Source of the DNA: Agelas oroides
Taxonomy: Eukaryota; Porifera; Demospongiae; Agelasida; Agelasidae
Direction: 5' to 3'
DNA: 64,000 nt
Assembly: GCA_949130485.1 (NCBI GenBank)
Contig: OX422185.1
Span: 5,226,928-5,290,927, forward strand
Made by a program: the position numbers and the translations under genes. A model generated the notes under the pieces. The model had not been told where the DNA came from. It did no database searches and saw only the letters and a program-made list of their open reading frames with translations. Numbering within the stretch: position 1 is the first letter of the stretch; the number at the start of each line of letters is the position of its first letter. Shown here piece by piece: positions 11,925 to 57,876 of the stretch.

Positions 11925-12401
<477 letters not shown>

Positions 12402-12722: not shown

Positions 12723-14294
12723 TTATCATAGTAACAGTAGCACCCGAGTATCACACTAACAGTAGCACCCGAGTATCACAGTAACAGTAGCACCCGAGTA
12801 TCACAGTAACAGTAGCACCCAAGTATCACAGCAACAGTAGCACCCGAGTATCACAGTAACAGTAGCACCCGAGTATCACAGTAGTGCCCAAGTATCACAG
12901 TAACAGTAGCACCCGAGTATCACAGTAACAGTAGCACCCCGAGTATCACAGTAACAGTAGCACCCGAGTATCACAGTAACAGCAGCACCCGAGTATCACA
13001 GTAACAGCAGCACCCGAGTATCACAGTAACAGCAGCACCCGAGTATCACAGTAACAGTAGCACCCACGTATCACAGCAACAGTAGCACCCACGTATCACA
13101 GCAACAGTAGCACCTGAGTATCACAGCAACAGTAGCACCCACGTATCACAGCAACAGTAGCACCCGAGTATCACAGTAACAGCAGCACCCGAGTATCACA
13201 GTAACAGCAGCACCCAAGTATCACAGTAACAGTAGCACCCGAGTATGTACAGCAACAGTAGCACCCAAGTATCACAGTAACAGTAGCACACGAGTATCAC
13301 AGTAGTGCCCAAGTATCACAGTAACAGTAGCACCCGAGTATCACAGTAACAGTAGCACCCGAGTATCACAGTAACAGTAGCACCCGAGTATCACAGTAAC
13401 AGCAGCACCCGAGTATCACAGTAACAGCAGCACCCGAGTATCACAGCAACAGCAGCACCCGAGTATCACAGCAACAGCAGCACCCGAGTATCACAGCAAC
13501 AGCAGCACCCCGAGTATCACAGCAACAGCAGCACCCGAGTATCACAGCAACAGCAGCACCCGAGTATCACAGCAACAGCAGCACCCGAGTATCACAGCAA
13601 CAGCAGCACCCGAGTATCACAGCAACAGCAGCACCCGAGTATCACAGCAACAGCAGCACCCGAGTATCACAGCAACAGCAGCACCCGAGTATCACAGCAA
13701 CAGCAGCACCCGAGTATCACAGCAACAGCAGCACCCGAGTATCACAGCAACAGCAGCACCCGAGTATCACAGCAACAGCAGCACCCGAGTATCACAGCAA
13801 CAGCAGCACCCGAGTATCACAGCAACAGCAGCACCCGAGTATCACAGCAACAGCAGCACCCGAGTATCACAGCAACAGCAGCACCCGAGTATCACAGCAA
13901 CAGCAGCACCCGAGTATCACAGCAACAGCAGCACCCGAGTATCACAGCAACAGCAGCACCCGAGTATCACAGCAACAGCAGCACCCGAGTATCACAGCAA
14001 CAGCAGCACCCGAGTATCACAGCAACAGCAGCACCCGAGTATCACAGTAACAGCAGCACCCGAGTATCACAGTAACAGCAGCACCCGAGTATCACAGTAA
14101 CAGCAGCACCCGAGTATCACAGTAACAGCAGCACCCGAGTATCACAGTAACAGCAGCACCCGAGTATCACAGTAACAGCAGCACACGAGTATCACAGTAA
14201 CAGCAGCACCCGAGTATCACAGTAACAGCAGCACCCGAGTATCACAGTAACAGTAGCACACGAGTATCACAGTAACAGTAGCACCCGAGTATCA
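12723..14294. repeat. Minisatellite, 25-bp unit, about 62 copies
   Basis: The unit is AGYAACAGYAGCACCCGAGTATCAC. The array has a mixed T/C left part and a homogenised all-C core (about 13440-14045). A partly T-type tail follows. A few units have an extra C or an ACACGAG variant. A period of 25 is not divisible by three, so it is not coding. Confidence 0.95.
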
Positions 14295-17780: not shown

Positions 17781-18045
17781 CCACATAACAACATTAACCA
17801 AGTTACACAACTTGTAGATAACAATTAGTGATCCCACCCAACCAATTAACAATCATATCATGCCTACCTATGACATCATGAGAAAAGGTCAGTCACATGT
17901 AGAAGAGAAAGAAGAGAGCTCAACTAAAGAGAAGAATCTAGCAGCATCCATTGCCTTCCTAAGAGATAAGTCATAGAAATATACTTCTGGCATTGCTACT
18001 ACTTTTATTTTGCTGGTCTGTAAACAAAAACAATAGTTCAAGTAC
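17781..18045 (+). repeat. R2 repeat, copy 1, left part
   Basis: It matches 52690-52960 and 57041-57311. It ends with CAATAGTTCAAGTAC, whose last six bases are the left target duplication of the two-gene transposon. The R2 sequence resumes at 22034. Confidence 0.85.
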
Positions 18046-18084
18046 GGTCCGTGTATATTTCCGCCAAACCAAAATCCAATACGT
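18046..18084 (+). repeat. Left 39-bp terminal inverted repeat
   Basis: It is identical over 39 bases to the reverse complement of 21995-22033. Imperfect inverted similarity extends to about 18200, including GAATTTCGG-like and TTACCGTATT blocks. Confidence 0.95.
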
Positions 18085-18280
18085 AATGAGTTTCGAATTT
18101 CGGCAAATGAGCAATTTTCAAAATTCCAATCCAATCTCCAAAGTTTTGAAATTTGGATTTCGGTGACGTTACCGTATTTCCGAAATAACGAATTTTCGTT
18201 TTGAAATGTTGAAGTCTGAAAGCGTCGACTGTTGTTCACACGTTCCGACGTACCAGCGTAACTGAGATACTTCTTCACAG

Positions 18281-20102
18281 ATGGCAGCCCTGGAAGGCCT
18301 TGAAGATTACGTCAGGGAAAAGATCGAGAAAGAAGGCATGACACATTCCCAGCTGTCTCTTCGCCTCCGTGAGCTGTACCCGGGAGTGAGAGGATTAAGC
18401 GTCCGCTCCCTGGAGAGATTCTGTGCGAGCAAAAGCATTCGCAAGACCGCCCGGCCAAGTACTCAGCAACTAGACGAGGCTGTCTGTGGTGCCATAGCAC
18501 AGGTAATCAATTATTTGTGAGCCATTGCATAGTTTCTATACTACATTAAGTTGTGGTCACTCCTATATTAGGCTATAGATAGTTTTCATAGGGTGTGACT
18601 TCGCTTTGGTACAAAATACAGGCCAGAAAGTACTATTTGCCTTCCAGAATAGAAGACGTAATTCAATTTTTGCACTCATTCAATTTCTTTCACTCTTTAT
18701 GTTTAAGGTTGGTCCTACATATGGTCGTAAGACTATGACTGGTCTTCTGGCGTCACAGGGGCTTCGTGTCAGCCAGCAAAGGGTGGGTGAATCCCTCAGA
18801 AGAATGAATCCCACCTATCACCATGCTCGTAGGACAGCAACAGCAAAGAAGATCAATCCTGTCCCATATCGAGCCGACTATTTTGGTCATAAGCTCCACA
18901 TAGACCAAAATGAGAAGCTGGTGATGTATGGCGTAACACATATTTGTGCAGTTGATGGGTTCAGTGGAAAGATTGTGGGGTTCGTCACCATGCCTGTGAA
19001 AAACAACATTGAGATTTACACCCATTTTTTTAGGTAAGCTGAGAGCATAAATTTGTCTCGTAGATGCTCATTGCTACATGTAGTAATAACTTGGCGAGTT
19101 TATTGAGCTTATCGTAGCAGATTGACAACAATTGGACCTTCATCAGCTGTAATGACTAATAGCACAGATACATTTCATGTCTTAGGAACTGAATAGAATA
19201 TGTGCCATACCATACCTAACCCAAGTTGATACATGCCTCCTTTTGCAGGCCAATGTTACTGGAGTATGGTATCTGGGATCAAGTGCGTGTGGACCAGGGG
19301 AAAGAGTGGATACTCATGCTGTATACCCAAGAACTGCTGGCTGATCAACGTAGAAACACAAGTCGAGCTCCTCACCTCCAGACAACCTCTAAGATGGTAA
19401 CTTTTTTGTCCATCATCAGTCACTGTGTACATATTTTTGATTGTGTCACTTTATTAGCTGTTCCTGTTCCTCAGAACCACTGTGTCGAGCGTATGTGGGT
19501 AGAAATCAATGGACGAGTGAACTACCCAGTCAAGGCTTGTCTTGTGACTCTGGAAGAGAGGGGGGATATTGACCTAGATTGCCCCCACCAGAAATTTTGC
19601 ATCTCGTGGTTTTCTATTCGTGTTGCAAATATTGGGACCACTTTGGCCATTCAAGCATGGAACGAGCATCCAATACCAGGTACAGTGAACAGATTGGATG
19701 TGTATCTACATGCATGCTTATGTGAAACTTGGTTGTGTCACACTGATTTGTCTTTATGAGAATCTTTTGTCATTTCCAGGAGGTCGTCGAGGGGTACCAA
19801 ACCAGCTAATGCACAGAAACAATCAGGTGATGCCACTTGACCCTGCCCTGGTACCAGAGCCAGAGGATGCTGTCCAACAGTTTGAGATGCATGGTGGTCA
19901 TCTAACTCTCTTTAGTGCTTTTGGATGTGATCCACTCGAAGATAGGGAGGACTTGATCAAAGCAAGGGAAGAGGACTTTTATAGAAAATATCCTGACTTT
20001 GGTCATTTCTTTTACACAGTAGTGAACAATGATTACTCTTTGTTTCGTGAAGGTCTTCTGTTCTTTATTGATGTAAGTAAGCGCTTGGAGTGTGAACTAT
20101 AA
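18281..20102 (+). CDS. rve/DDE-type transposase, five exons, 407 aa
   Basis: The exons are 18281-18502, 18708-19033, 19249-19396, 19475-19679 and 19780-20102. All introns are GT-AG and all joins are in phase, giving 407 residues. Residues about 19-53 look like a helix-turn-helix (SQLSLRLRELYPGVRGLSVR) for DNA binding. The integrase-like core has candidate catalytic residues D140 (HIDQNEK), D198 (RVDQGKEW) and E237 (NHCVERMW), plus AVDGFSGKIVGF at 155-166. Such proteins are usually annotated as integrase-core-domain proteins in fish, cnidarians and sponges. Its job would be cutting and joining the element ends. The ATG at 18281 directly follows an acceptor-like TTCTTCACAG, so a 5' UTR intron is possible. 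No stop or frameshift is seen. Confidence 0.88.
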
Positions 20103-20240
20103 TAATTCTTGTGTGTTGCCCAGTTAAAAATGTTTTTATTGAACTTAGAGGGACCATCTAATGATGGTTAACAAGACAAAAAATAAAATAGTGGTTAACA
20201 TGCAAAGTTATAAGTACGCAGGTAAACAATGAATACTACA

Positions 20241-21621
20241 TTAGTCCAGGAGCACAGAAGGAACTTCCTCCTCCTCACGCTCTTCCTCAGTCTGGATTGC
20301 CTTTCTCACTTGAATTAAAAAGTCATCAAGTCCGCGAAGTAGCATCGTTTCATTATAACCCCTTGCAGCTCGGCATGACGGACAAGTTTTAGTAAGTGCA
20401 TCTTCTCCACTGTACCAACTATTGATACAGGACTCACACCCCAAAATCGTCTTGCAGCACTTTGTCACTATCACAGGGGGATTGATAGGCACAGTGTGAC
20501 ATACACGGCACTTAAATGTCTCTCGAAGGATGCGCTTGAGGCCCATGGGAATGCTGCTGTCGGCACTTAGTGTCATCATTTCACCAAGGGCCTCCTTGAT
20601 ACCCCCAACTTCACTGAGGATCATGTCGAGTTTTTCCTCCTTTCGTTCCTTCTTGCTCCTGGGCTCAAAATCTTCTTCATCTGAATCTAGGATAAGCGAC
20701 CGCTTCCAGCTAGAAATGGGAGTGCTGTCTCTGATGTCCTTCTGGCTAACAGCATACACCTTTCGACGAGGGCATTTCCAGAAAGACAGTCCTATACAGG
20801 AGAGATAATAAAATATGAGTGGTTATAGCTTATATATTTAGAGAAACTAAATGTACTGAAGCACACAAAACATCAACATTGAGTTGGCAACAACAAACCT
20901 TGAGTTGCTGGCGAATCTTCCAATGGAAGCCCATCACTGGTGACAAGGGTATATTCAGTCCCCCATCTCTTCTGGATGATGCCGAGAATGTGCTCAAGGT
21001 TTGCCGTACTTTCCACTAGTTCAAGATAGGTCTGGCTAATGGGCTGAAATTCCGCTTTTCTTTTTCCCTGTCGGCACATCGTTGCCTTCACCACTTTGAG
21101 GCTAAAACTAGCCACTCTCTTCGGAGCCGTCACTGAACGAAATGATGGAGGAGGAAGTGAGGATGTTGTGGGTGTGCTTGAAACTGTCACCAAAGATTGC
21201 TGGCGAGGGAGAGTGTTGGAGCGAGGCAACATGGATGCTGACAGTGCTGGACCCTCAACGACCAGAGTGGCATAAGCAGAGACTCCCAGGCTGCCCAGGT
21301 TGAAGTTCCCATTCTCCTGTGGAAAAAAAGCTGTCCCATCACAGTCATCTCGGAGCCATGTTTCGGATGGGTTGACCTGCATGACAATAGCAGTAGTGGA
21401 GAATATAATTGCTGTGGATTGGTGGGGAGGAATTACTAACTAATCGGTGGGGAGGAATTACTAACTAATCTCTACTCTGCACTGCTATGTTCGCAGATTA
21501 CACAAACATAAGATACCTGAAAAAGCCTTCTCAGGTTATCCACAGTGACTTGCTGCAGCTGTAGTTCATGTGTTCTCCCGTTACGCTGGAGAGTTACACG
21601 GGTAGCGGTAGGAGAAGCCAT
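20241..21621 (-). CDS. Transposon-borne RING-like protein, three exons, 377 aa
   Basis: The exons on the minus strand are 21621-21517, 21376-20899 and 20791-20241; joins are GT-AG and in phase (0 and 1). Residues 1-35 (MASPTATRVTLQRNGRTHEL on) run into NPSETWLRDDCDG, then a Ser/Pro/Thr-rich linker (about 75-125). Residues 239-248 are basic. A RING-like domain at 289-334 has cysteines C289, C292, C306, C307, C313, C316, C331 and C334. The C-terminus is Glu-rich. RING domains usually act as ubiquitin or SUMO E3 ligases, so it might modify transposase or host factors; that is inference. The ATG at 21621 is the only one before the conserved start. The gene is convergent with the transposase. Confidence 0.82.
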
Positions 21622-21994
21622 GCTGAAGTCGGGTCGGTGGCTGGCTGTAGGTCGCTCGGAGAGACTTGCTGCGTGGACGTAGCTGTATGTGGCTACACAA
21701 ATTGAACTGCATTTTATACGCAGAAATCCGGCCAAACAGGTGAGGAAAAAAGCTTTAGATGAACCAAGTGAGAACCGACTTGCAAGTAGCGTTGTTGTTT
21801 ACAACTCGATCTGTTGATTGACAACGAATATCCAAGTCTTTGAAGATTAATATTCACGAAATGTATTAAAACTTCGTTATCTTGGTAATACGGTCAACGT
21901 CGTCCAAAATCCAAAACTTTTGATTTTTGGAAATTGGACTGGGATTTCGAAATTTGGACTCCGCGCGCCGTATTCCGTAATTCATATTTAAACA

Positions 21995-22033
21995 ACGTAT
22001 TGGATTTTGGTTTGGCGGAAATATACACGGACC
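21995..22033 (-). repeat. Right 39-bp terminal inverted repeat
   Basis: This is the perfect mirror of 18046-18084. Imperfect inverted similarity continues inward to about 21870. Confidence 0.95.
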
Positions 22034-22545
22034 AAGTACTCATTTGATTCTCAGAGATTCAAGTTAAAGGTTAAATAGTCTATAGTTATCTAGCTACCAT
22101 AAGACCGATGACTCAAAGCATGTGTAAGATCGCATGTAGTGAGCCTACATGTTCCAAGCCCACATGCAGCATGTCCCAACTACCAGACTTAGCTGGACTC
22201 CATGTACATATGGGAGTGGCTCCGCCCTTTCTGTAGCCAATCACAGGTCGGGAGTTTAAAGGAGCCGAAACCTGTGTTTGTGCAAAGATCAGACTGGGAA
22301 CTCCCCTGATGACCAGCAAAAAGAAAACTGCAAACTGGAACAGGCGGAACAGTTGAATATGTAGTTACTGCTGTGATACTCCCATAGTAACGAGCTTTAC
22401 ATTACATTATTCAGCAATATCACACACATGCAGGACCCCCCAAAAGGAATATGTAACCAAAATTAAGTATCTCATCTTCACTGACCCATGGTGCAATGGA
22501 CACGTTCCCTGCCAATCTCCTTAACAGGAAGACTCTTAAACACAC
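22034..22545 (+). repeat. R2 repeat, copy 1, right part
   Basis: It starts with the second AAGTAC and continues TCATTTGATTCTCAGAG. It then follows the copy at 57312-57845, through TGGCTCCGCCCTTTCTGTAG and GATGACCAGCAAAAAG to AGGAAGACT. Only a few point differences separate the copies. Confidence 0.85.
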
Positions 22546-28429: not shown

Positions 28430-29400
28430 ATCATGGAAGTCAAGCTGGAAGCTCCTGCTGAGCTTACTTTCTCAGTAGTGCTGTCTACGATTGAGACCAT
28501 GAGCTATGGAAGTCGAGCTGGAAGCTCCTGCCGAGCTTACTTTCTCAGTAGTGCTGTCTACGATTAAGACCATGAGCTATGGAAGTCAAGCTGGAAGCTC
28601 CTGCCGAGCTTACTTTCTCAGTAGTGCTGTCTACGATTAAGACCATGAGCTATGGAAGTCGAGCTGGAAGCTCCTGCTGAGCTTACTTTCTCAGTAGTGC
28701 TGTCTACGATTAAGACCATGAGCTATGGAAGTCGAGCTGGAAGCTCCTGCCGAGCTCACTTTCTCAGTAGTGCTGTCTACGATTGAGACCATTAGCTATG
28801 GAAGTCGAGCTGGAAGCTCCTGCCGAGCTCACTTTCTCAGTAGTGCTGTCCACGATTGAGACCATGAGCTATGGAAGTCGAGCTGGAAGCTCCTGCCGAG
28901 CTCACTTTCTCAGTAGTGCTGTCCACGATTGAGACCATGAGCTATGGAAGTCGAGCTGGAAGCTCCTGCCGAGCTTACTTTCTCATTAGTGCTGTCCACG
29001 ATTGAGACCATGAGCTATGGAAGTCGAGCTGGAAGCTCCTGCCGAGCTTACTTTCTCAGTAGTGCTGTCCATGATTGAGACCATGAGCTATGGAAGTCGA
29101 GCTGGAAGCTCCTGCCGAGCTTACTTTCTCAGTAGTGCTGTCCACGATTGAGACCATGAGCTATGGAAGTCGAGCTGGAAGCTCCTACTGAGCTCACTTT
29201 CTCAGTAGTGCTGTCTACGATTAAGACCATGAGCTATGGAAGTCGAGCTGGAAGCTCCTGCCGAGCTTACTTTCTCAGTAGTGCTATCTACGATTAAGAC
29301 CATGAGCTATGGAAGTCGAGCTGGAAGCTCCTGCCGAGCTTACTTTCTGAGTAGTGCTATCTACGATTGAGACCATGAGCTATGGAAGTCGAGCTGGATG
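28430..29400. repeat. Minisatellite, 73-bp unit, about 13 copies
   Basis: The unit begins CATGAGCTATGGAAGTCGAG and ends CTACGATTAAGAC. Variants cluster (CTACGATTAAG versus CCACGATTGAG). The last unit degenerates after GAGCTGGATG. The period is not a multiple of three. Confidence 0.95.
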
Positions 29401-30324: not shown

Positions 30325-32165
30325 ATAGACTGAACAACCCAACTGTGTGAGGGAGCATGTGACAGAGACTGAACGACCCAACTGTGTGAGGGAACATGGG
30401 ATAGAGACTGAACGACCCAACTGTGCGAGGGAGCATGTGACAGAGACTGAACGACCCAACTGTGCGAGGGAGCATGGGACAGAGACTGAACGACCCAACT
30501 GTGCGAGGGAGCATGTGACAGAGACTGAACGACCCAACTGTGCGAGGGAGCATGTGACAGAGACTGAACGACCCAACTGTGCGAGGGAGCATGTGACAGA
30601 GACTGAACGACCCAACTGTGCGAGGGAGCATGTGACAGAGACTGAACGACCCAACTGTGCGAGGGAGCATGTGACAGAGACTGAACGACCCAACTGTGCG
30701 AGGGAGCATGTGACAGAGACTGAACGACCCAACTGTGCGAGGGAGCATGTGACAGAGACTGAACGACCCAACTGTGCGAGGGAGCATGTGACAGAGACTG
30801 AACGACCCAACTGTGCGAGGGAGCATGTGACAGAGACTGAACGACCCAACTGTGCGAGGGAGCATGTGACAGAGACTGAACGACCCAACTGTGCGAGGGA
30901 GCATGTGACAGAGACTGAACGACCCAACTGTGCGAGGGAGCATGTGACAGAGACTGAACGACCCAACTGTGCGAGGCAGCATGTGACAGAGACTGAACGA
31001 CCCAACTGTGCGAGGGAGCATGTGACAGAGACTGAACGACCCAACTGTGCGAGGGAGCATGGGACAGAGACTGAACGACCCAACTGTGCGAGGCAGCATG
31101 TGACAGAGACTGAACGACCCAACTGTGCGAGGCAGCATGTGACAGAGACTGAACGACCCAACTGTGCGAGGCAGCATGTGACAGAGACTGAACGACCCAA
31201 CTGTGCGAGGGAGCATGGGACAGAGACTGAACGACCCAACTGTGCGAGGGAGCATGGGACAGAGACTGAACGACCCAACTGTGCGAGGGAGCATGGGACA
31301 GAGACTGAACGACCCAACTGTGCGAGGGAGCATGGGACAGAGACTGAACGACCCAACTGTGCGAGGGAGCATGGGACAGAGACTGAACGACCCAACTGTG
31401 CGAGGGAGCATGGGACAGAGACTGAACGACCCAACTGTGCGAGGGAGCATGGGACAGAGACTGAACGACCCAACTGTGCGAGGGAGCATGGGACAGAGGC
31501 TGAACGACCCAACTGTGCGAGGGAGCATGGGACAGAGGCTGAACGACCCAACTGTGCGAGGGAGCATGGGACAGAGACTGAACGACCCAACTGTGCGAGG
31601 GAGCATGGGACAGAGACTGAACGACCCAACTGTGCGAGGGAGCATGGGACAGAGACTGAACGACCCAACTGTGCGAGGGAGCATGGGACAGAGACTGAAC
31701 GACCCAACTGTGCGAGGGAGCATGGGACAGAGACTGAACGACCCAACTGTGCGAGGGAGCATGGGACAGAGACTGAACGACCCAACTGTGCGAGGGAGCA
31801 TGGGACAGAGACTGAACGACCCAACTGTGCGAGGGAGCATGGGACAGAGACTGAACGACCCAACTGTGCGAGGGAGCATGGGACAGAGACTGAACAACCC
31901 AACTGTGTGAGTTGGGTTGTTCAGTCTCTGTCCCATGCTCCCTCGCACAGTTGGGTCGTTCAGTCTCTGTCCCATGCTCCCTCACACAGTTGGGTTGTTC
32001 AGTCTCTGTCCCATGCTCCCTCACACAGTTGGGTTGTTCAGTCTCTGTCCCATGCTCAGCCCAACTGTGTGAGGGAGCATGGGACAGAGACTGAACAACC
32101 CAACTGTGTGAAGGAGCATGGGACAGAGACTGAACAACCCAACTGTGTGAAGGAACATGGGAGAG
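30325..32165. repeat. Minisatellite, 39-bp unit, about 47 copies, with inverted block
   Basis: The unit is GAGACTGAACGACCCAACTG followed by TGCGAGGGAGCATGTGACA. The left half is mostly GTGACA and the right half mostly GGGACA. From about 31911 to 32058 nearly four units lie in the opposite orientation, then the array returns to the first orientation. Because 39 is a multiple of 3 and the unit lacks stops in several frames, long ORFs (up to 641 codons) appear on both strands; these are by-products. The unit is nearly identical to the dispersed repeat at 60668-60704. Confidence 0.95.
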
Positions 32166-52689: not shown

Positions 52690-53245
52690 TACATAACAAC
52701 ATTAGCCAAAATTAGATACTCCACACAACTTGTGTAGATAACAGTTACTGATAGACACCCAACAAATTACCAATGATGTCATGGTCTACCTATGACATTA
52801 TGAGAAAAAGTCAGTCATATGTAGAAGAGAAAGAAGAGAGATCAACCAAAGAGAAGAATCTAGCAGCATCCATTGCCTTCCTAAGAGATAAGTCATTGAA
52901 GTATACTTCTGGCATTGCTACTACTTCCATTTTGCTAGTCTGCAAACAAAAACAATAGTAAGTATTCATTTGATTCTCAGAGATTCAAGTTAAAGGTCAA
53001 ATAGCTGTGACAGTCTGTAGCTACCAAGACACTGGTGACTCAAAGCATGTGTAAGATCGCATGTAGTGAGCCTACATGCTCCAAGCCCACAGCATGTCCC
53101 AACTACCAGACTTAGCTGGACTTCATGCACATATGGGAGTGGCTCCGCCCTTTCTGTAGCCATCCACAGGTCGGGAGTTCAAAGGAGCTGAAATCTGTGT
53201 TTGTGCGATGATCAGACTGGGAACTCCACTGATGACCAGCAAATA
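52690..53245 (+). repeat. R2 repeat, copy 2
   Basis: ACATAACAACATTAGCC through GTCATGGTCTACC and CTCAGAGATTCAAGTTAAAG to GATGACCAGC. It has AGTAAGTATTCATTTG where the two-gene transposon inserted in copy 1, so it is a second empty site. Confidence 0.85.
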
Positions 53246-56877: not shown

Positions 56878-57020
<143 letters not shown>

Positions 57021-57040
57021 CTGTCTCTCTGAGCTGAGTC

Positions 57041-57839
57041 CACATAACATTAACCAAGATTAGATAAGTTACACAACTTGTAGATAACAATTAGTAATCC
57101 CACCCAACCAATTAACAATCATATCATAGCCTACCTATGACATCATGAGAAAAAGTCAGTCACATGTAGAAGAGAAAGAAGAGAGATCAACTAAAGAGAA
57201 GAATCTAGCAGCATCCATTGCCTTCCTAAGAGATAAGTCATAGAAGTATACTTCTGGCATTGCTACTACTTTCATTTTGTTGGTCTGTAAACAAAAACAA
57301 TAGTTCAAGTACTCATTTGATTCTCAGAGATTCAAGCTAAAGGTCAAATAGCTGTGACAGTCTATAGTTATCTAGCTACCATAAGACCGATGACTCAAAG
57401 CATGTGTAAGATCGCATGTAGTGAGCCTACATGTCCCAAGCCCACATGCAGCATGTCCCAACTACCAGACTTAGCTGGACTCCATGTACATGTGAGTGGC
57501 TCCGCCCTTTCTGTAGCCAATCACAGGTTGGGAGTTTAAAGGAGCCGAAACCTGTGTTTGTGCAAAGATCAGACTGGGAACTCCCCTGATGACCAGCAAA
57601 AAGAAAACCGTGAACTGGAAACAACAGAACAGTCAAATATCTAGCTGCTACTATGATACCCCCACAGTGATAAGCTTAACATTACATTATTCAGCATGCT
57701 ATACCACACACATACAAGTCCTCCCAAAAGGAATAAGTTTAAAAAAAAAAATTTCAAAAAAATAAAAAGTATATCATTTTCACTGACTCATAGTGCAATG
57801 GACACGTTCCCTTCCACCCTCCTTGTTAGGAAGACTTTC

Positions 57840-57845
<6 letters not shown>
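57041..57845 (+). repeat. R2 repeat, copy 3 (empty-site reference)
   Basis: This is a full-length copy of about 800 bases without insertions. It contains CAATAGTTCAAGTACTCATT at 57297-57316, the unoccupied target of the two-gene transposon. It also contains the uninterrupted ACATAACATTAACC start that dates the insertion at 51960. Confidence 0.85.

Positions 57846-57876
<31 letters not shown>

Follow-up and report, generated by a model that had tools for sequence, protein, structure and literature searches.

A putative RING ligase gene in an apparently intact DNA transposon of the sponge Agelas oroides, probably from a lineage close to but distinct from IS3EU-type elements

Introduction

What kind of mobile element lies at 18046-22033 in the stretch of DNA analysed here, and does the gene for a RING-like protein that it carries belong to it? 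The window, as we call the whole stretch, comprises 64,000 nucleotides of the genome of the sponge Agelas oroides (assembly GCA_949130485.1, contig OX422185.1, here C3; C3:5226928-5290927), and relatives of the element were sought in the same 259-Mb genome. The initial annotation, made from the letters of the window, described a full autonomous-looking transposon with two genes, one for an rve-type DDE transposase and one for a RING-like partner, and could name no superfamily for it. To our knowledge, few DNA transposons bring their own ubiquitin ligase, and the literature searched does not contradict this. Our analysis indicates that the locus is very probably a DNA transposon that looks autonomous and belongs to a RING-carrying lineage, a close but distinct relative of IS3EU-type elements, both being akin to IS3/IS481.

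Boundaries of the element

The element is 3,988 bp long and has inverted ends of the form GGTCC..GGACC. Its terminal inverted repeats (TIRs) are identical at 39 of 39 bases, the left one (18046-18084, + strand) beginning GGTCCGTGTATATTTCCGCC and the right one lying at 21995-22033 (- strand), and beyond them inverted similarity continues for about 150-165 bp at 75%. A 6-bp target site duplication (TSD), AAGTAC, is present on both sides (18040-18045 and 22034-22039). The target repeat also has a paralogous copy in the window that is unfilled (56878-57850, + strand), with its junction at 57307-57312. The left flank of the element aligned with 56878-57312 (91%) and the right flank with 57307-57850 (85%), and the two alignments share exactly one AAGTAC; positions 57295-57325 (31 bases) consist of left flank, a single AAGTAC and right flank. 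Another unfilled copy (52691-53243, + strand, 88%) has one AAGTAT. Because the unfilled copies carry a single target hexamer at the junction, both the element's boundaries and its 6-bp duplication are secure, and on perfect TIRs, TSD and unfilled sites alike direct comparison of the sequences bore out the initial annotation.

Gene 1 encodes a predicted DD38E transposase

The two genes of the element lie on opposite strands, tail to tail. Gene 1 (+ strand) is predicted to have five exons joined at GT-AG splice sites, located at 18281-18502 (with the ATG and a GT donor), 18708-19033, 19249-19396, 19475-19679 and 19780-20103 (which holds the stop codon), and to encode 407 amino acids uninterrupted by a stop. 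The catalytic residues D140, D198 and E237 fall in exons 2, 3 and 4, respectively, giving a DD38E triad. The protein matched Pfam rva_4 (PF24764) with E=1.5e-17 and 64.4 bits against a cut-off of 26, which confirms the DDE transposase of the earlier description. This integrase-like core spans amino acids 137-313, or 18894-19817 with introns included (coordinates derived by hand from the exons). The bacterial profiles for IS481 (NF033577, E=3.4e-7) and IS3 (NF033516, E=1.2e-5) matched far below their cut-offs and covered the N-terminal and core region. The N-terminus gave a weak match to the helix-turn-helix model HTH_21 (E=0.035, under the cut-off), and residues 1-139 contain two isolated cysteines and no CxxC. 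The Pfam search did not report PF00665 for the window transposase at E<=1, and on relatives at loci L056 and L057 this model gave 0.18 and 0.0027, both under the cut-off. A PDB search with the transposase yielded 0 matches with the single sequence and the alignment alike. Scans with a transposase alignment for relatives in bacterial and archaeal genomes and in IMG/VR, only two short peptide patterns being used per scan, gave 72 and 80 pattern matches, none of them confirmed.

Gene 2 encodes a predicted RING protein

Gene 2 (- strand) is predicted to have three exons joined at GT-AG (21517-21621, with the ATG; 20899-21376; 20241-20791, with the stop codon) and to encode 377 amino acids, again without a stop within the frame. 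With both predicted genes open, the description of a full autonomous-looking two-gene element held. The protein carries a C-terminal RING in exon 3, whose cysteines occupy residues 289-334 (about 20373-20510, derived by hand). The zinc-ligand pattern C-x2-C-x10..12-C-C-x5-C-x2-C-x(n)-C-P-x-C is present, with unusual spacing and with Cys at the position of the usual fourth-ligand His. A family profile built from seven sequences, one being the window protein and the other six fragments drawn from five further loci, matched PDB entry 1z6u ('Np95-like ring finger protein', which we take to be UHRF2) at 8.6e-8, UHRF1 at 2.1e-6 and RNF8 at 5.2e-5; a RAG1 chain scored E=0.19 in the same search. RING models of Pfam matched relatives at L056 (5.3e-5) and L058 (2.7e-5), both under the curated cut-offs. 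The RING-like partner is thus supported by the family profile and weakly visible in the window protein alone. Based on ligand pattern and profile similarity, gene 2 is predicted to encode a RING E3 ligase-like protein with a putative ligase role.

Gene 2 might instead encode a second transposition protein that binds DNA or the element ends through a zinc knuckle and is no ligase. Two-protein transposons are common, and both the unusual cysteine spacing and the Cys in place of the fourth-ligand His would suit such a protein. However, the profile search matched the family to RING E3 ligases, and gene 2 shows three traits that fit E2-binding RINGs: a hydrophobic residue between its first cysteines, a Trp behind the sixth cysteine and a CPxC that closes the motif. 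The HECT ligase gene found beside related elements (below) also argues against this alternative, which we regard as improbable.

Linkage of the two genes across families

Clustering of the hit lists gave 61 canonical transposase loci, defined by rva_4 rows of at least 105 bits, 39 class-2 loci, which the window protein matched away from any canonical row, and 34 RING loci. These counts are lower bounds, with 150 of 223 and 102 of 189 candidates scored, and many class-2 loci are fragments. Among the matches listed, a RING relative was located within 5 kb at 13 of the 39 class-2 loci compared with 0 of the 61 canonical loci, while chance would place one near a transposase at about 0.0014 per locus. 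Judged by the strands of the hits, the paired loci are convergent (5), divergent (5) or tandem (3); one C2 cluster scored as tandem also contains a second, divergent pair. A proposal of the initial annotation, that TIRs, transposase and RING gene might recur in the same order, therefore stood for co-occurrence and failed for order.

A search with the end pattern GGTCMGTGTAYMTTTCSGCCAA, allowing two mismatches, found 54 genomic sites versus 0 for the reversed control, excluding chance as the source of the ends. Nineteen TIR pairs were examined: 17 facing pairs from this pattern together with L057 (C1) and L058 (C22), which were found through their genes, as only L056 was besides. Exact 6-bp TSDs flank nine of the 19 (AAGTAC, CGGGAA, GTGTTT, GGGTAT, AGAGAA, CACTTG, TAGCTA, GTCCTC and TATATG). 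The first bases of the window element and the gene-found families are GGTCC, GGTCA or GGTGA, and one C22 end reads GGCAA. One other family, at C21:4496169-4500623, has perfect TIRs of 611 bp and the TSD GTGTTT; each of its two genes is one open frame, and the pair is placed head to head. Further families occur on C1, C22, C9 and C2.

The RING gene recurs across families with transposases 42-58% identical, indicating that it is old and has been kept. Between diverged families, amino-acid-changing differences per site were far fewer than silent ones for gene-2 fragments (0.385 vs 0.872) and for transposases (0.281 vs 0.857), which fits long-term constraint on both genes. Sequence comparison establishes paired inverted ends, a 6-bp duplication, a predicted DD38E transposase, a predicted RING partner and the linkage of these two genes across diverged families.

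Some copies among the TIR pairs are too small for either gene, and at C1:83086-84829 and C2:660774-662525 there is a RING match and no transposase match among the matches listed. The initial annotation had held that TIRs without homologues of the genes would cost the element its novelty; short copies were indeed found, but they do not refute the finding since TIRs without genes are normal for DNA transposons. A RING-gene relative at L060 3237-4259 (C18:4017736-4018743) has no transposase match nearby among the matches listed; it is a RING-only element or else a gene of the host.

Three loci have an unusual structure. The copy at C13:3309875-3311614 (L002, L062) shows 3 differences from the window element over the left 1,616 bases, which fits recent copying. 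Beyond these bases its right end is that of a different family, and it lacks a TSD, which makes it a chimera that may have arisen by template switching during gap repair. The loci C7:1612128-1615391 (L063) and C4:1451612-1452025 (L071, L072) have mirror-image flanks, with perfect inverted arms of 2,760 bp at C7, and represent inverted duplications or assembly fold-backs.

That many genomic copies are fragments or bear stops, and that flanks are mirror images at C7 and C4, could mean that the window element too is a dead relic or an assembly artefact. We think this very unlikely. Both of its genes are free of stops, its TIRs are perfect, its TSD is exact and its target has an unfilled paralogue, and over 1,616 bp the partial copy on a different contig departs from it at 3 positions.

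Canonical elements and HECT genes

Canonical rva_4 elements with visible ends have TATGG..CCATA. A search for these ends returned 60 sites, compared with 1 in the reversed control, and 11 facing end pairs were visible; all eight of the pairs examined have an exact 6-bp TSD. At least three of these eight enclose a canonical transposase match (C1:31747302, C3:2658067 and C18:2723935), and lone TATGGGG ends lie beside further canonical loci; for the remaining canonical families no ends were found. TA..TA ends with a TSD of usually 6 bp are hallmarks of IS3EU (PMC10045372), which is why we call the canonical elements IS3EU-type. The label was given from the ends of some of the rows, in a comparison within this genome.

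A match to a HECT ligase was present within 5 kb at 21 of the 61 canonical loci, whereas none was found within 10 kb of the 43 class-2 rows tested. The HECT genes run convergent with the transposase at L087 4724-6401 (C1:27.56 Mb; PF00632, 1.4e-8), at L086 5322-6231 (C9:7.24 Mb; 5.1e-7) and, as a weaker match, at L085 1325-2478 (C1:31.75 Mb; only 0.11). The 9.1-kb element C1:31747302-31756435 (TSD AACAAT) contains the transposase, together with frames whose resemblance to HECT was judged by eye and has no significant Pfam score. Two related transposon lineages in one genome travel with predicted E3-type genes of different folds. By eye, the RING and HECT proteins may have an N-terminal domain in common.

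In tblastn searches of plasmids, a canonical transposase hit 666 records under 60% identity and the L056 transposase hit 46 at E up to 5. The matches listed are annotated as IS3 family transposase or hypothetical protein, or are unannotated.

Placement and comparison with known systems

We placed the transposases in a tree of 27 rows (36 before removal of near-duplicates): five RING-class, 17 canonical, three bacterial IS3 and two LTR (long terminal repeat) integrases. All canonical rows are labelled 'HECT' in it; HECT matches, however, were found close to only one third of the canonical loci. The RING-class transposases formed one clade with 100/100 support, its stem 3.2 changes per site long. 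The two LTR integrases, from the same genome, were set apart by a 100/99 branch, where the root was placed by choice. Because the canonical rows alone had only 51/63 support, the RING class may be sister to IS3EU-type elements or nested inside them. The DDE spacing separates the two groups: 38 in all four measurable of the five RING-clade rows and 33-36 in all 18 measurable of 22 canonical open reading frames. An origin from Ginger or gypsy was rejected on the basis of the tree and the missing HHCC domain.

The published systems can be compared through PMC10045372. There, IS3EU and GingerRoot usually have a 6-bp TSD and TA..TA termini, occasionally TG..CA in GingerRoot; IS481EU, from parabasalids, has TG..CA ends and TSDs near 4, 15 or 25 bp; IS3 and IS481 insertion sequences end in TG..CA; and Ginger1 has an N-terminal HHCC zinc domain. 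The window lineage resembles IS3EU and GingerRoot in its IS3/IS481-like core, its 6-bp TSD and the absence of HHCC, but it ends in GGTC or GGTG.. rather than TA..TA. We rejected a hidden IS3EU-like TACGG end, formed where TAC of the left flank meets GG of the element, because other copies of the lineage have unrelated flanks. Within this genome, IS3EU-type elements have DD33-36E and, at some loci, a HECT gene, whereas the window lineage has DD38E and a RING gene. IS481EU has a similar IS481-like transposase; the window element differs in its GG..CC ends and 6-bp TSD. It is linked to bacterial IS3/IS481 by profile matches far below those families' thresholds and differs from them by its introns, RING gene and GG..CC ends. 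Ginger1 is set apart by its HHCC domain, given that residues 1-139 of gene 1 contain no CxxC, and the window transposase did not group with LTR integrases as a gypsy-type integrase would. The absence of a nameable superfamily was therefore overstated in part: the transposase falls under rva_4 beside IS3EU-type elements, and its 6-bp TSD is common to IS3EU and GingerRoot (PMC10045372), while its ends, DDE spacing and partner gene differ.

The element could be a divergent IS3EU family with odd ends inside that superfamily, its RING gene a passenger captured once. The same Pfam core and the 6-bp TSD agree with this, and the 51/63 support separating canonical rows from the RING clade would allow nesting. 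Yet the gene-found families have GG and not TA at their ends, the RING clade has DD38E and a stem 3.2 changes per site long, and no HECT match lies within 10 kb of the 43 class-2 rows tested; a RING gene present in families 42-58% identical in transposase looks old and kept rather than captured in passing. We consider this reading rather unlikely. A more far-reaching reading, to which we give somewhat less than even odds, is an undescribed superfamily-level lineage related to IS3/IS481, with GGT..ACC ends, a 6-bp TSD, DD38E and a RING E3 needed by autonomous copies. Two related lineages would then have independently gained or exchanged E3s (RING here, HECT in IS3EU-type elements), so that ubiquitination would be a recurrent part of transposition or of escape from silencing. 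Overall, we regard the window element as real and apparently intact, from a distinct RING-carrying lineage next to IS3EU and possibly a new superfamily.

Several points weigh against our main reading. The end pattern selected 17 of the 19 TIR pairs, which therefore give no evidence on end uniformity. In ten of the 19 no exact 6-bp TSD is present: the flanks are mirror images in two, one is the two-family chimera (C13:3309875), one matches at 5/6 (C22), one is ambiguous (C1:16253914), and five have none (C13:7860541, two duplicated C5 copies, C6 and C2:17757368). The TSD GGGTAT (C1:83086) sits in a repetitive flank. The gene models are based on splice signals alone, and the window gene 2 protein by itself matched Pfam zf-RING_2 at E=0.12 and no PDB chain below 0.38. 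In the diverged pairs the silent sites have reached saturation, and the closely related pair L056/L059, with ratios of amino-acid-changing to silent differences (dN/dS) of 0.57 for gene 2 and 0.67 for the transposase (inflated by a frameshifted end), is little informative. In the tree, RING and canonical rows are separated from IS3 and LTR integrases by only 94/93, with long branches flagged by the program.

RAG-like transposons are also two-gene elements whose transposition is tied to a RING E3; in RAG1 the RING lies inside the recombinase itself, and the transposase type is unrelated to that of the window element. Fungal IS3EU elements carry alpha-kinase and TET/JBP accessory genes (PMC12730594), which suggests that turnover of accessory genes is a habit of the IS3EU group.

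The open-access literature searched contained nothing joining IS3EU with a RING finger and transposase or with HECT, and an entry for the lineage in Repbase or Dfam is possible. Two papers contain both IS3EU and ubiquitin and, judged from the matches listed, name ubiquitin once each; among the entries listed, no title or abstract opening describes a transposase and RING pair. Proteins resembling both genes are presumably present in fish and coral predictions, which could lower the novelty.

Possible mechanism and significance

The transposase would bind the element ends through its N-terminal region, where the weak helix-turn-helix match lies, excise the element and integrate it into target DNA with a 6-bp stagger. 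The gene 2 protein may act in trans as an E3 ubiquitin ligase. Its target would most likely be a host silencing or repair factor that is removed or modified; the transposase complex is a less likely target. A ligase role is supported chiefly by the HECT ligase found with related elements, and the RINGs nearest to gene 2 are chromatin and DNA-damage ligases. Two related lineages with E3-type genes make it testable whether ubiquitination controls the transposase or disarms the host, and a copy that appears young, with its two genes open and a marked unfilled site, offers ready material.

Other features of the window

Rfam reported one match in the window, to a tRNA outside the element (12230-12302, - strand), scoring 31.2 bits against a gathering score of 29 and without an ARAGORN call; it is possibly a tRNA-derived short interspersed element (SINE). 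Long tandem arrays are located at 12724-14294, 28433-29398 and 30327-31911, with units of 25, 73 and 39 bp that match at 94-98%.

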